From Desulfobacterales bacterium (lineage in GTDB: Bacteria > Desulfobacterota > Desulfobacteria > Desulfobacterales > JALSRD01): a stretch of 61,120 nt of DNA. Of the stretch, positions 44,869 to 51,818 are shown piece by piece; within the stretch, counting starts at the first letter, position 1; the number at the start of each line of letters is the position of its first letter. Below the pieces are notes generated by a model. That model was not told the DNA's origin and made no database searches. It worked only from the letters and a program-made list of their open reading frames with translations. The translations under genes were made by a program, and so were the position numbers. The stretch lies in the NCBI GenBank assembly GCA_026984935.1, contig JALSRD010000042.1, positions 1 to 61,120 of the forward strand. Direction: 5' to 3'.

Positions 44869-44885
44869 AGCGGCACACAGCTAAG

Positions 44886-47681
44886 ATGAAGAATACAGCG
44901 CATCCGCACATCTCGGGCAAGGCCCTGGTCGTGGGCGGCGGTATCGGCGGCATCCAGTGCGCGCTGGACCTGGCCGACACCGGGTTTTACGTCTACCTTT
45001 TGGAAAAATCCGCCAGCGTGGGCGGCACCATGGCGAGGCTGGACAAGACCTTCCCGACCAACGACTGCTCCACCTGCATGATTTCGCCCAAGCTGGTCCA
45101 GGTGGCGCGCCATCGGAACATCGAGATCCTGACCCTGAGCCGGCTGGCCGCGCTAAGCGGCAAGCCCGGCAATTTCCGTGCACAAATCGAAAAGCAGCCC
45201 CGCTACGTCGACCATGAAAAGTGCATCGCCTGCGGCGCCTGCGCCCAAAAATGCCCCCAGAAAGTGCCCGACCCCTTCAACGGCGGACTTTCCATGCGCA
45301 AGGCGGCCTACCTGACCTTCCCCCAGGCGGTACCCCTCAAGTACGCCATCGATGCCCAGAACTGTCTCTATTTGACCCGCGGGAAATGCGGTCTGTGCCG
45401 CAAGATATGCCCCACCCGCGCCATCGCCTACGACCAGCAGCCGGAGACGCTGGAGCTGACCGTGGGCGCTGTGGTGCTGTGCACGGGATTTGAACTGGCC
45501 CTCACACGGCAAAACGGCGAGTACGGCTATGACCGCTACCGCAATGTCGTCAGCTCGCTGCAGTACGAGCGCATGCTGTCGGCCACCGGGCCTTACGGCG
45601 GCCACGTGCGCCGGCCATCGGACGGCCGCACGCCGCGCAGGGTGGCCTGGATCCAGTGCGTCCTGTCCCGCGACCCGTCGCGCAACCGCCCGTTTTGCTC
45701 GGCCGTCTGCTGCATGCACGCGGCCAAGCAGGCCGTTTTAACCCGCCAGCACGATCCCGACAGCCAGGCCACGATATACTTCATGGATGTGCGCGCCCAT
45801 GGCAAGGGCTTTGACGACTACATCGAACGCGCACGCGCACACTACGGCGTGCACTACAAGCGTTCCATGATCTCCCAGGTTTACCTCGAACCGGATTCGG
45901 AAGACCTGATCATCGAAACCTTCGACCACCACCTGAACCGCAAGGTGGAGGAAACCTACGACCTGGTGGTGCTTTCATCGGGGTTCAAGCCTTCAGAGGC
46001 CTTCGGCGACCTGGCGAAGCGTCTGGAAATCGACACAAACCCCTATGGGTTTGCGCTCACCGACTTCCAACACCCAGTACACACCTCCCGGCCAGGGGTC
46101 TTCGTATGCGGCGCCACCGAAACCCCCAAGGACATTCCCGAGACCGTCATCCAGGCGGGAGCGGCCGCGGCCGAAGCCGCCGCCCTGGTGCATCCTGCAC
46201 GGCACCGGGATGTCACCAGCGAAACGACCCCGCCGGAGCGGGCGCTGGACGCCGAACCGCGCATCGGGGTGTTCGTCTGCCATTGCGGCAGCAACATCGC
46301 AGGCGTCGTCGACATCGAAAAAACCGTGGCTTACGCCAAAACGCTGCCCCACGTGGCCTACGCCGACCATTTCCTCTTTTCCTGCTCCAACGATACGCTG
46401 CAGAAAATGGAAGCTCTGATCCGCGATAAGCGCTTGAACCGCATCGTTGTGGCCGCCTGTTCACCGCGCACCCACGAACCGCTGTTTCAAAGCGTGCTGC
46501 AGAAAGCAGGCGTAAATCCCTACCTTTTCGAACTGGCCAGCATCCGGGACCAGTGTTCCTGGGTCCACAGCGACGATCCGGCCAAGGCCACAGCCAAATC
46601 CATGGACCTGATCCGTGCCAGCACGGCGCGCGCCGCGCGCCTGGAAGCGCTCAGCGACCATACTTACAGCGTTACCAAAACAGGTCTGGTCATCGGCGCC
46701 GGCATCGCCGGCATGACCGCCGCCCTGGCACTGGCGGACCAGGGATTTGCGGTGCACCTGGTGGAAAAAGAAGGTTCCCTGGGAGGTTTCGCCAACAACC
46801 TGACCGGCACCCTGGAAGGCAACTCGCCGGCCGCTCTGGTGCATGCGCTCGCCGAACGGATCAAGACCCACCGCAACGTTTACCTGCACCTCGGAAGCCA
46901 ACTGGTCGCCCACCGGGGCCACATGGGCGCATTCGAAGGCGCCATCCGGACGACTTCCGGAGAAGAGGCCATCCAGTACGGCGCCGTGGTGGTCGCCACC
47001 GGCGGCAGCGCCTACACCCCGACCGAATACCTCTACGGCCGGGACGAACGTGTCGTCACCCAGGTGGAACTCTCCCGGCGCCTGCAGACCGATCCCGGCT
47101 GGGCCCGCGGGCTGCGCCAGGTGGTCATGATCCAGTGCGTGGGCTCGCGCAACGAAGCGTTTCCCTTCTGCAGCCGGGTCTGCTGTTCGGCGGCGGTGAA
47201 AAATGCTCTGCTTTTAAAGGAGCTCGATCCCGGGATAAATCTCGTGGTGCTGTACCGCGACGTACGCACCTTCGCCTTCAAGGAGCTCTACTATTTGAAG
47301 GCCCGGCGCCGGGGCGTGCTCTTCTTCCGCTACATTCCCCAAGCGCCGCCGGAGGTCCACCGCGAAAACGGCACGCTGGTCGTCGACTTCACCGACCGCA
47401 GTTCGCATCAGGATTTTGGTATTCAGCCCGACCTGCTGGTTTTGAGCGCCGGCATCCGTCCCAACGCGGGTACCGCGCAAATTGCCGACCTGCTCAAACT
47501 GCCGACCACCGAAGAGGGGTTTTTCCTGGAAGCGCACGTCAAGCTGCGGCCGGTGGAAATGGCCACGGCCGGCATCTTCATCGCCGGTCTGGCCCACAGC
47601 CCGAGATTCATCGAGGAAACGCTCACCATGGCCAGAGCGCCGCCCAGCAGGCCGCCAAGATCCTGTGCCGCGGGCAGATGA
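44886..47681 (+). CDS. hdrA: Heterodisulfide reductase-like subunit A (FAD, 4Fe-4S), frame interrupted near the 3' end
   Basis: 931 residues as read. An FAD-binding 'VVGGGIGGIQ' lies near residue 15, then 'NDCSTCMISPKL', a [4Fe-4S] insert 'CIACGACAQKCP' with 'CGLCRKICP' (~113-180), a central 'CHCGSNIAG' region (~465), and a second flavin/nucleotide domain 'VIGAGIAGMTAA' (~602). This duplicated form occurs in HdrA linked to electron bifurcation. After 'FIEETLTMAR' the frame goes astray (APPSRPPRS...) and stops at 47681. One base added in the GCGCCGCCC run near 47640 would continue as 'AAQQAAKIL' into the ferredoxin domain encoded next. ATG at 44886 opens the recognisable protein. Confidence 0.88.
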   Translation: MKNTAHPHISGKALVVGGGIGGIQCALDLADTGFYVYLLEKSASVGGTMARLDKTFPTNDCSTCMISPKLVQVARHRNIEILTLSRLAALSGKPGNFRAQIEKQPRYVDHEKCIACGACAQKCPQKVPDPFNGGLSMRKAAYLTFPQAVPLKYAIDAQNCLYLTRGKCGLCRKICPTRAIAYDQQPETLELTVGAVVLCTGFELALTRQNGEYGYDRYRNVVSSLQYERMLSATGPYGGHVRRPSDGRTPRRVAWIQCVLSRDPSRNRPFCSAVCCMHAAKQAVLTRQHDPDSQATIYFMDVRAHGKGFDDYIERARAHYGVHYKRSMISQVYLEPDSEDLIIETFDHHLNRKVEETYDLVVLSSGFKPSEAFGDLAKRLEIDTNPYGFALTDFQHPVHTSRPGVFVCGATETPKDIPETVIQAGAAAAEAAALVHPARHRDVTSETTPPERALDAEPRIGVFVCHCGSNIAGVVDIEKTVAYAKTLPHVAYADHFLFSCSNDTLQKMEALIRDKRLNRIVVAACSPRTHEPLFQSVLQKAGVNPYLFELASIRDQCSWVHSDDPAKATAKSMDLIRASTARAARLEALSDHTYSVTKTGLVIGAGIAGMTAALALADQGFAVHLVEKEGSLGGFANNLTGTLEGNSPAALVHALAERIKTHRNVYLHLGSQLVAHRGHMGAFEGAIRTTSGEEAIQYGAVVVATGGSAYTPTEYLYGRDERVVTQVELSRRLQTDPGWARGLRQVVMIQCVGSRNEAFPFCSRVCCSAAVKNALLLKELDPGINLVVLYRDVRTFAFKELYYLKARRRGVLFFRYIPQAPPEVHRENGTLVVDFTDRSSHQDFGIQPDLLVLSAGIRPNAGTAQIADLLKLPTTEEGFFLEAHVKLRPVEMATAGIFIAGLAHSPRFIEETLTMARAPPSRPPRSCAAGR

Positions 47682-47923
47682 CCACATCGGCGGCCGTGGC
47701 CGAAGTTGATGTGCAAAAATGCACGGCCTGCCTGGTGTGCGTGCGGGTCTGCCCCTTCGGCGCACCGTACATCGGCGACGAAGGGGTCTCCTGCATCCCG
47801 CCGTCCGCCTGTATGGGCTGCGGCATCTGCACTGCCGAGTGCCCGGCCGGCGCCATCACCCTGAAGCACAGCACCGACGACCAGATCACGGCAAAAATTG
47901 ACGCCCTGCTGGAAAATCCCTGA
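47678..47923 (+). CDS. Two-cluster ferredoxin domain, displaced C-terminus of HdrA
   Basis: 81 residues if started at the ATG at 47678, which overlaps the hdrA TGA (ATGA). It has 'CTACLVCVRVCP' and 'CMGCGICTAECP', then 'TDDQITAKIDALLENP', the usual ending of HdrA proteins that carry a C-terminal dicluster ferredoxin. The same frame is open upstream and matches the HdrA C-terminal helix ('QQAAKILCRGQM'), so the piece is the natural end of HdrA shifted by one base. Either a sequencing or assembly deletion, a real mutation, or a split gene translated by coupling. The evidence cannot separate these. Confidence 0.7.
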   Translation: MTTSAAVAEVDVQKCTACLVCVRVCPFGAPYIGDEGVSCIPPSACMGCGICTAECPAGAITLKHSTDDQITAKIDALLENP

Positions 47924-48049: not shown

Positions 48050-49111
48050 TCATACGAAAACCAGGCGCAGTGAACCCTCGCCGGGGACCACGCGGCCGAT
48101 ACGGCACGCCGCCGACACGCCGGCCTGCTGCAAAGCCGCTGCCAAGGAATCCGCCTGCTCCGGCGGCAGGGATACCAGCAGGCCGCCGCTGGTCTGGGGG
48201 TCGAACACGATCTGGCGGTGCCAGTCGGGCACGCTGGTGTCAAACCGCGTCGCCGCCGCTGTCAGTTCGCGGTTATAGGCGTTGACCCCGGTGTTCATGC
48301 CCTTTTCGTACATTTCCAGGGCCTCGGCCATCACGGGCAGCCGGTCGATTCGTATTTCCAGGCAGACACCGGAGGCCGAAGCCATCTCGTAGCCGTGCCC
48401 GGCCAGGCCGAAACCGGTGACATCGGTGGCGGCATGGATCTCGTAGCCGGCCATGATCTCGGCAGCCTTCCGGTTGAGTGCCGTCAGGGTTTCGATGCAG
48501 GCGGCCATGGCCGCCGGCGATACCCACTTTTTGAGATTGGCGTTGAAAAGCACCCCGCTGCCCAGCGGTTTGGTCAAAACCAGCGCGTCGTCCACCCGCG
48601 CACCGGCGTTGCGCCAGATCTTCCGCGGATGGACCACACCGGTGACCGCCAGGCCGAACTTGGGCTCGTCGTCCTCCACGGTATGTCCGCCGGCCAGCAC
48701 CGCACCGGCCGCGCCGATCCTTTCCAGGGCACCGGCCACGATCTGCTGCAGCACCTGCGGGTCGAGCTTGTCCGGCGGGAAACAGATCAGGTTCAGGCAC
48801 ATCACGGGTTTGGCGCCCATGGCGTAGATATCGCTCAGGGAATTGGCCGCCGCGATCTGGCCGAACACGTATCCGTCATCCACCGGCGGAGTGATGAAGT
48901 CCGCGGTGCTCACCATGGCGATCTCCGGCGTCAGGCGGTAGATGCCGGCGTCATCGCTGGTGTCGAAACCGACCAGCAGATTGGGATCCTTCTCCCTGGG
49001 CAGATTTTTCAGAAGCGCTCCCAGCCCGACCGGGCTGACCTTGGCCGCTCAGCCGCAGGTTTTGGAGAGGCCCGTCAAGGTTGCCTTCCTGAAGATTTTC
49101 AGCGGAGCCAT
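48050..49111 (-). CDS. selD: Selenophosphate synthetase, itself a selenoprotein (in-frame UGA = Sec21)
   Basis: Read through one UGA, the frame gives 353 residues, the normal SelD length (E. coli 347). ATG at 49111 has GGAGG upstream. The N-terminus reads LSKTCG-Sec-AAKVSP, aligning Sec21 (codon 49049-49051) with catalytic Cys17 of E. coli SelD. It continues through 'VGFDTSDDAGIY', 'ADFITPPVDD', 'NSLSDIYAMGAKPV', 'GGHTVEDDEPKFG' and 'DVTGFGLAGH', all SelD signatures. A standard gene caller would start at 48916 and miss the active site. It makes selenophosphate from selenide and ATP for Sec-tRNA. Convergent with the hdr cluster. Confidence 0.93.
49022..49037 (-). promoter_or_regulatory. SECIS-like hairpin within selD
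   Basis: Starting 11 bases after the UGA, CAGCCC-GGTC-GGGCTG forms a perfect six-base-pair stem with loop GGUC, so the loop opens with G 18 bases past the UGA. This matches the general bacterial SECIS plan: short stem-loop 3' of the UGA with G at the loop start, bound by SelB. Confidence 0.7.
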
Positions 49112-49553
49112 AATTCTTTAAACCTCCTGTTGGTGCGGCGAAAAGCGGGAGATGCACCGGCTGCTGCCGGTTTTCGTCTGCCGCAACGCGTATCGCTTTG
49201 CAGACTGCCGCCGGCGGAAAATCAACGGCGCGCCGGCACGCGGGGACCACAATATAAAGCCGCCGGCCACCCTTGGCAAGCACTGTCTGGATTTTCACCC
49301 GGATTTGTGCTCCCGCCGGCCCCTGAACCTTTGTGCGGCTCGTTTCCCGGCAACCGGTGCGGCCGGGGCCAATCCCGCGACATGTGGCATTTGACATCCT
49401 CAGCCAAATTTAGCATACTTGCACCATGGGTGGCGTACCGCCGAAAGCGGCCGCATGTGCGCTGCTCATCGGAAAAGCGCTGCACCGGAATCAAAAAGAC
49501 GCGTCCAACGCTGCGTCCAATTCACGCCCCCTTCCCATGGGAGAAAACTGTTA
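49112..49553. other. Divergent intergenic region, 442 bases
   Basis: Lies between selD (minus) and the DUF255 gene (plus). No gene-like frame with a ribosome-binding site. A good plus-strand promoter is at 49391-49419. I see no obvious minus-strand promoter for selD. Confidence 0.6.
49391..49419 (+). promoter_or_regulatory. Sigma-70-type promoter for the DUF255 gene
   Basis: TTGACA (49391-49396), 17-base spacer, CATACT (49414-49419, 4 of 6). The leader would be ~130 bases. Confidence 0.5.
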
Positions 49554-51818
49554 ATGCGTTCCTGTCCGGTCATCACGGCGGTTGTGCTTTTCGCGGCCGT
49601 TTTCTACGGACCACTGCCGACGGCAGCCGGCGGCCCGGCCGGCGATGCCACCATCGCCGCCTTTGTCGCCGCACAGCGGGCCCTGGGCAAAACGCCCAAT
49701 CATTTGATCCATGAGAGCAGCCCCTACCTGCTGCTGCACGCCTTCAACCCGGTCAACTGGTACCCTTGGGGGGACGCCGCCTTTGAAAAGGCCCGCCGCG
49801 AGGACAAGCCCATTTTTTTGTCCATCGGCTACATGACCTGCCACTGGTGTCACGTCATGGCACGCGAATCCTTCAGTGACCCGCAGATCGCCGCGCTGCT
49901 GAACCGCTGCTTCGTCAGCATCAAGGTCGACCGTGAAGAGCGCCCGGATATCGACCGTATCTACATGGCCGCCACCCAGGCGCTGACCGGCAGCGGCGGC
50001 TGGCCCATGACGGTTTTCCTGACACCCGAGCGCCGGCCCTTTTATGCCGGCACCTATTTTCCGCCGCGGGCGCGCGACAACCTGCCCGGACTGGCCGACG
50101 TGCTGCGGGCCGTACACGGCAGCTGGATGGACAACCGCGGCAGAATTACGGCTTCAGCCAAAAAAATCACGGCCCTGCTGAAACGTGAGAACCAGTTTGC
50201 CGCCCGCAGCGCCGTGCCGGCGCAAACATTGCTGGCCAAGGCCTACCGCCAGTTCGCGGCACACTACGACCGGCAGTATGCCGGCTTCGGGCACTCGGCC
50301 AAGTTTCCCCGGCCGGTGGTCTTCAACTTCCTCCTGCGCTGGTACGCCCGCGACGGGCAGAAGGATGCGTTGGACATGACCCTGGCCACACTGCGGCGCA
50401 TGGCCGCCGGCGGCCTTCACGACGTCATCGGCGGCGGTTTCCACCGCTATGCCGTGGACCGCAGGTGGCGCGTACCGCACTTCGAAAAGATGCTCTACGA
50501 CCAGGCCCAACTGGCTGTCTCTTACCTGGAAGCCTACCAGATCAGTTCCGATGCATTTTTCGCCCGCATTGCAAGGGGTATCTTCGCATACGTGCTGCGT
50601 GACCTGACCGGCCCCGGCGGCGAATTCTACTCGGCCCAGGACGCCGACAGCCCCCTGCCCGATGATCCCCGCCGGGAAGGCGAAGGCGCCTACTACCTGT
50701 GGACCTATGGGGAAATCGAAAAAGCCCTGGGGAAACACGATGCCGCCATCTTCGGTTTCCGTTTCGGTATTCGCCGCAAAGGCAACGCGCCGGCGGATCC
50801 CGAAGGTGCATTCAAGGGCCAAAACATCCTCTACCAGGCCCGCTCGATCACCCGGACCGCCGACCGTTTCGGTATTGCGCCGCAAACGGTTCGCAGGATC
50901 ATCAAACACGGCCGGCAAAAGCTCTCTGCACTGCGCGCCAAAAGGCCGCCGCCACGGCTGGACGACAAGGCCCTTGCGGGCGAAAACGGTCTGATGATTT
51001 CAGCGCTGGCCCGTGGCTTTCAGGTCCTGGACGAACCCCGCTACCTGCATGCCGCCACACGCGCCGCCAGCTTTATCCTGGACAACCTGTACGACCGCTC
51101 CAGCGGTCGCCTGCTGCGCCGCTACCGCCGGGGAAAGGGCGGCATCGATGGACATCTGGAGGACTACGCCTTTTTGGTGCAGGGCCTGCTGGACCTGTAT
51201 GAAAGCACCTTCGATACTGCCTGGCTCAAGCGTGCCGGCAAGCTGACCGAGCACCTGATCGCGCACTTCTGGGACCCTGGCGGCGGGTTTTTCGAAACCG
51301 CCGGCACCGACACTGCACTGCTCATGCGCATGAAAGCCGACTACGACGGCCCGGAACCCAGCGGCAACTCCGTGGCGGCCCTGAACCTGCTGCGCCTGGC
51401 CCAGATGATCGGCCGTGGGAAATGGCGCGACCGGGCAGCCAAAATCCTGTCCGTATTCGGCCCGCACCTGCAGCAGTATCCGGCGGCCATGCCGCAGATG
51501 CTGGTGGCACTCGACGTTTACCGCAGCCGGCCGCGGCAGATCGTCGTGGCGGGCAGACCCGATGACCCCCGCACGCACCGCATGCTGCGATTCATCTACG
51601 CGCGCTTCGTGCCCGACAGGACCCTGCTTCTGGCAGACGGCGGTGCCGCCCAGCGGCAGCTGGCCGCGAACCTGCCCTTCGTGGCCGCCCTGCACATGAT
51701 CGGCGGCCGGCCCACCGCCTACGTGTGCCGCAACCACGTCTGCCGGCTGCCGACGTCCGACCTGAAGGTGCTGGCCAGGTTGTTGACCATTCCAACACGA
51801 AAAGGATCCGGAACATGA
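49554..51818 (+). CDS. DUF255 thioredoxin-fold / six-hairpin glycosidase-like protein (YyaL/SSP411 family)
   Basis: About 754 residues, with an N-terminal hydrophobic segment (residues 5-25) suggesting export, unusual since most relatives are cytoplasmic. Residues ~45-200 are the thioredoxin-like DUF255 domain with the hallmark 'NPVNWYPWG', '[15 protein letters not shown]', '[10 protein letters not shown]' and '[13 protein letters not shown]'. The rest is an alpha/alpha-barrel region ('[17 protein letters not shown]', '[13 protein letters not shown]', '[15 protein letters not shown]'). The biochemical role is unknown. The stop overlaps the next start (ATGA). Confidence 0.88.

Follow-up and report, generated by a model that had tools for sequence, protein, structure and literature searches.

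A selenocysteine-encoding selD gene with a predicted bacterial SECIS hairpin in a Desulfobacterales genome

SelD proteins (selenide, water dikinase) that carry selenocysteine (Sec) at the catalytic position are well described (PMC4561486, PMC13188914): 19% of the SelD genes in reference prokaryote genomes are reported to encode Sec, always at the same position, and bacterial SECIS (bSECIS) elements are reported within such genes (PMC4561486). The limits given for a bSECIS place its loop 16–37 nt after the UGA, with a loop of 3–9 nt, a stem of 4–16 bp and a G in the first two loop positions (PMC13188914). Among organisms rich in selenoproteins, Syntrophobacter fumaroxidans is reported to have 31, including SelD, FdhA, FrhD and HdrA (PMC1794560), and Desulfobacterium autotrophicum at least 31, of which FdhA, MvhD and HdrA are named (PMC2702500). 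The window (the whole 61,120-nt stretch of Desulfobacterales DNA analyzed here) carries a selD gene that shows no essential difference from the Sec-containing SelD (SPS2-type) of many bacteria, with the same single UGA site and a predicted bSECIS just downstream. From sequence analysis we judge it, with a probability of about 0.97, to be a standard Sec-containing bacterial selD gene; this assignment is correct but ordinary, the arrangement being well known in this bacterial group. The features on which the argument draws are as follows.

48050..49111, minus strand: selD, selenide, water dikinase, 353 residues with predicted Sec at residue 21 (read-through translation; TIGR00476; alignment with solved SelD structures)
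48917..49111, minus strand: N-terminal 65 codons missed by ordinary ORF calling (ORF call plus read-through; kept in relatives)
49049..49051, minus strand: in-frame UGA, predicted selenocysteine codon 21 (TGA in 60/62 relatives, TGT in 2/62; aligned with cysteine 17 of 3u0o_A)
49022..49037, minus strand: predicted bacterial SECIS hairpin, CAGCCC-GGUC-GGGCUG (fold, synonymous recodings, codon conservation; loop starts 17 nt after the UGA)
49123..49128, minus strand: AGGAGG, likely ribosome-binding site (11 nt ahead of the extended start codon; function suggested by its sequence)

Read on the minus strand, 49111..48050 is a single frame with one internal TGA (49051..49049, appearing as TCA on the plus strand at 49049-49051) and a terminal TGA (48052..48050). 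A mechanical ORF search starts selD at ATG 48916 and returns 288 residues, losing the 65 encoded by the 195 nt (65 codons) immediately upstream (48917-49111); the start of the gene is cut off in ordinary gene finding because the internal stop codon is, on our reading, decoded as selenocysteine. An earlier note on this DNA had proposed that translation through this TGA restores the missing 65 residues and places Sec at the equivalent of the catalytic Cys17 (TCG-Sec-AAK), and both proposals held. Read from the extended start (ATG at 49111..49109), the gene encodes a full-length SelD that exceeds the profile cut-offs for family membership, scoring 368.5 bits against TIGR00476 (selD; cut-off 125, match beginning at residue 12) and 327.2 bits against NF002098 (cut-off 299). 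Alignment with chain 3u0o_A, which we take to be E. coli SelD, covers residues 11–351 and sets residue 21 on cysteine 17 and Lys24 on lysine 20, giving the N-terminal Cys or Sec followed by a conserved Lys that marks the SelD catalytic site; the two proteins belong to the same family, with Cys at this site in 3u0o and predicted Sec in the window SelD. The extension thus corrects a gene model truncated by ordinary ORF calling. The AGGAGG usually stands 5–9 nt before the start codon, so that the 11 nt at selD is somewhat far.

The internal TGA is conserved among relatives. Of 63 loci returned by the genome_contigs scan, 62 span the site (L080 is cut short), and 60 of these have TGA and two (L059, L070) TGT, so the in-frame UGA lies where homologues have Cys or Sec; one of the six scan patterns carried Cys at the Sec site, and therefore any bias would favor Cys. 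Addition of 29 loci from related genomes brought the total to 92, with TGA in 89 and TGT in two of the 91 that span the site (duplicates between the two collections, which may overlap, were not removed). All 57 loci with at least 58% identity to the window SelD have TGA, and the surroundings of the codon are conserved too. A second survey covered 146 genomes (the organism's own plus relatives; rows counted by eye) and reports TGA counts, not positions, which were checked for the fetched loci alone. A SelD match was obtained from 139 genomes: 129 have a listed match that spans the site and contains an internal TGA, and the remaining 10 gave only weak or partial matches not reaching it. By eye, no site-spanning match listed for the 146 genomes lacked an internal TGA; an additional TAG occurs in one listed match (G106), and two TGAs in another (G078).

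Decoding of UGA as Sec had been predicted to need SelA, SelB and tRNA-Sec, with absence of selC or selB named as grounds for rejecting the proposal; all three genes are present in the genome (3.89 Mb in 112 contigs, 99.45% complete by tool estimate). A single tRNA-Sec exceeds the gathering score (76.1 bits, contig C41; called by ARAGORN as tRNA-SeC with anticodon tca), SelB is found on contig C67 (387.2 bits, cut-off 242.25) and SelA on contig C108 (613.6 bits, cut-off 267.9). These contigs all differ from that of the window (C42), within which ARAGORN found no tRNA.

The hairpin downstream of the UGA is a predicted bacterial SECIS under synonymous constraint. Its 25-nt core folds at -11.9 kcal/mol (z -2.62 relative to shuffles), and the window hairpin surpasses all 200 of its synonymous recodings in strength (z -2.91); longer stretches from the UGA region did not exceed dinucleotide shuffles in stability (60 nt, z 0.32; 41 nt, z -0.64), and an Rfam search of the whole window gave no family at or above its gathering score. 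Across 58 sequences (57 relatives plus the window, their hairpin stretches comprising 45 distinct sequences), the mean z against synonymous recodings is -1.89, with 57% of the 58 below p 0.05. Codons 27, 28 and 29 (49025-49033) have the three lowest synonymous entropies of the 142 testable positions (those with one amino acid in at least 90% of the 58 aligned genes, that of the window among them); each of these codons is four-fold degenerate, and CCG is used in 56/58, GTC in 54/58 and GGG in 53/58 genes, a synonymous conservation as expected for a bacterial SECIS element. In 58/58 sequences a 20-nt stretch takes as its minimum-energy fold a hairpin that covers these codons, with the loop GGTC in 54, GGTG in two and TGTA and AGTT in one each (the middle GT is forced because the valine is invariant). 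Pairings vary slightly across the set and include paired C-G to T-A changes (e.g. AGTCC/GGACT). At a distance of 17 nt, with a 4-nt GGUC loop and a stem of 6–7 bp, the selD hairpin falls within the published bSECIS limits.

These data bear on other explanations of the internal TGA. It might stand for a TGC or TGT misread in sequencing or assembly, the gene then encoding an ordinary Cys-SelD (the TGC case had been raised in the earlier note); a frame break in the neighboring hdrA (about 47632) could signal some errors in this contig, and two relatives do have TGT. However, a TGA-for-TGC error is excluded because TGA occupies the same codon in nearly all relatives and in every one of the 57 close loci, and both the synonymous constraint just downstream and the complete Sec machinery likewise count against an error, which we regard as extremely improbable. 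Next to no weight falls on a selD that is truly truncated, translated from 48916 with the upstream part a decayed remnant: ORF calling does yield a 288-residue frame from that ATG, but a product without residues 1–65 would miss the catalytic site, and the upstream frame retains SelD sequence, relatives matching from residues 1–11 onward at 60–70% identity.

The occurrence of UGA inside several genes would also suit a variant code, in which UGA specifies an ordinary amino acid genome-wide. Yet selD and seven of the 10 window ORFs inspected end in TGA, and therefore UGA is not simply reassigned; the internal TGAs inspected occupy redox positions that are conserved in known selenoprotein families, and SelB, SelA and tRNA-Sec are all encoded, leaving a variant code highly implausible. 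We thus retain the reading of a Sec-containing SelD. The elements observed directly (the frame, the UGA and its conservation, the constrained hairpin, selA/selB/selC and other TGA-containing genes) can be set into the known pathway, from which SelB binding to the selD hairpin, Sec insertion and catalysis would be expected. Ribosomes would start at ATG 49111 and arrive at the UGA of codon 21 without stopping, SelB, bound to the GGUC-loop hairpin a short way downstream, delivering Sec-tRNA-Sec to this codon. The Sec side chain, in the N-terminal loop, would then take part in converting selenide and ATP to selenophosphate, which SelA would use for more Sec-tRNA-Sec.

The expectation that other selenoprotein genes should exist was also borne out, with TGA at a conserved site in each family found. 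The one FdhA match above cut-off has a single TGA (in DHCARL-U-HSSTVAGL); seven of 10 FlpD/MvhD matches have one each, located within G-U-H..[DE]CHY in four of them and within C.[YW]-U-GY.AADLAG in the other three; six HdrA matches have TGA in TNDC[AS][MI]-U-[IV][IL]SPK; and one [NiFeSe]-hydrogenase large subunit has it near its end (YDP-U-ISCATH). No match to SelW-like proteins (PF10262) was obtained in the genome. Including SelD, at least 16 TGA-containing genes in five families were found for the six families sought. The organism is thereby marked as a Sec user, most of its TGA-containing selenoprotein genes belonging to Hdr/Mvh electron transfer. This set agrees with published Deltaproteobacteria selenoproteomes (PMC1794560, PMC2702500, PMC4561486): SelD, FdhA, several FrhD/MvhD and HdrA are likewise selenoproteins in S. 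fumaroxidans (PMC1794560), and FdhA, MvhD and HdrA are so in D. autotrophicum (PMC2702500), although both organisms have more selenoproteins than the 16 counted here, where only six families were sought. In the seven FlpD/MvhD loci (L087-L093, on G000 contigs C70, C107, C56, C67, C100 and C36), the TGA falls at codon 9 or 60 of the matched domain, never at both. Scanning the window by composition for read-through TGAs did not discriminate (selD came 37th of the 40 rows listed); by eye, the stronger rows seem to reflect shadow frames or the termini of neighboring genes, and we claim no other selenoprotein in the window.

The less familiar points are modest ones and concern the number of TGA-containing SelD genes per genome and the position of the hairpin by lineage. 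Two or more long TGA-containing SelD matches were counted by eye, among the matches listed, in 14 of the 146 genomes (G002, G003, G011, G015, G026, G034, G044, G058, G069, G071, G089, G126, G131 and G145); a limited keyword search of the literature found no publication describing a genome with two Sec-SelD genes. In one genome (G002, contig C63), two TGA-containing SelD genes lie 1.8 kb apart (165662-166705 and 168483-169493), with 62% and 43% identity to that of the window. SelD genes of the window's lineage share a GGUC hairpin at 17 nt that the more distant SelD lineages compared do not; in these the best hairpin lies about 20 or 32 nt from the UGA (examples L122-L124 and L055). Against synonymous recodings, the close group (n=58) has signal only in the proximal stretch (mean z -1.89 versus +0.60 distal), whereas the distant group (n=32 of 34, two TGT loci being left out) has it in both (proximal -2.06, distal -2.07).

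In a tree of 90 of the 92 SelD proteins (those below 280 residues dropped), the close group forms one clade with support 0.89, which is weak evidence because membership of that group had itself been set by identity to the window (at least 58%); the distant set is not one clade under midpoint rooting. Hairpin position seems to differ between SelD lineages, in a picture that the proximal signal of the distant group makes less than clean. Tentatively, and at slightly under even odds, Desulfobacterales may hold at least two old Sec-SelD lineages, sometimes co-resident, with the SECIS at about 17, 20 and 32 nt from the same UGA, such that the signal would have moved while the Sec site stayed fixed. 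Relatives with two Sec-SelD genes might help to ask why a cell keeps two selenophosphate synthetases that need their own product.

The neighbors of selD in the window have features of their own. In hdrA (44877-47923), the frame breaks near 47632: the final residues ahead of the stop at 47681 are no longer in frame, and a different frame carries the ferredoxin-like C-terminal part on to 47923; the HdrA paralogues of the genome (L131-L134, L136) have both parts in one frame, and the break is either an assembly error or a real split. At about residue 67, the window HdrA (44877-47681) has Cys (TNDCSTC), versus TGA (TNDC[AS][MI]U) in six paralogous matches of the same genome, so Cys and predicted Sec forms of HdrA stand side by side in one genome. 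The divergent neighbor on the plus strand (49551-51818) encodes a DUF255/Thioredox_DsbH protein with a CHWCH motif (PF03190, 250.7 bits).
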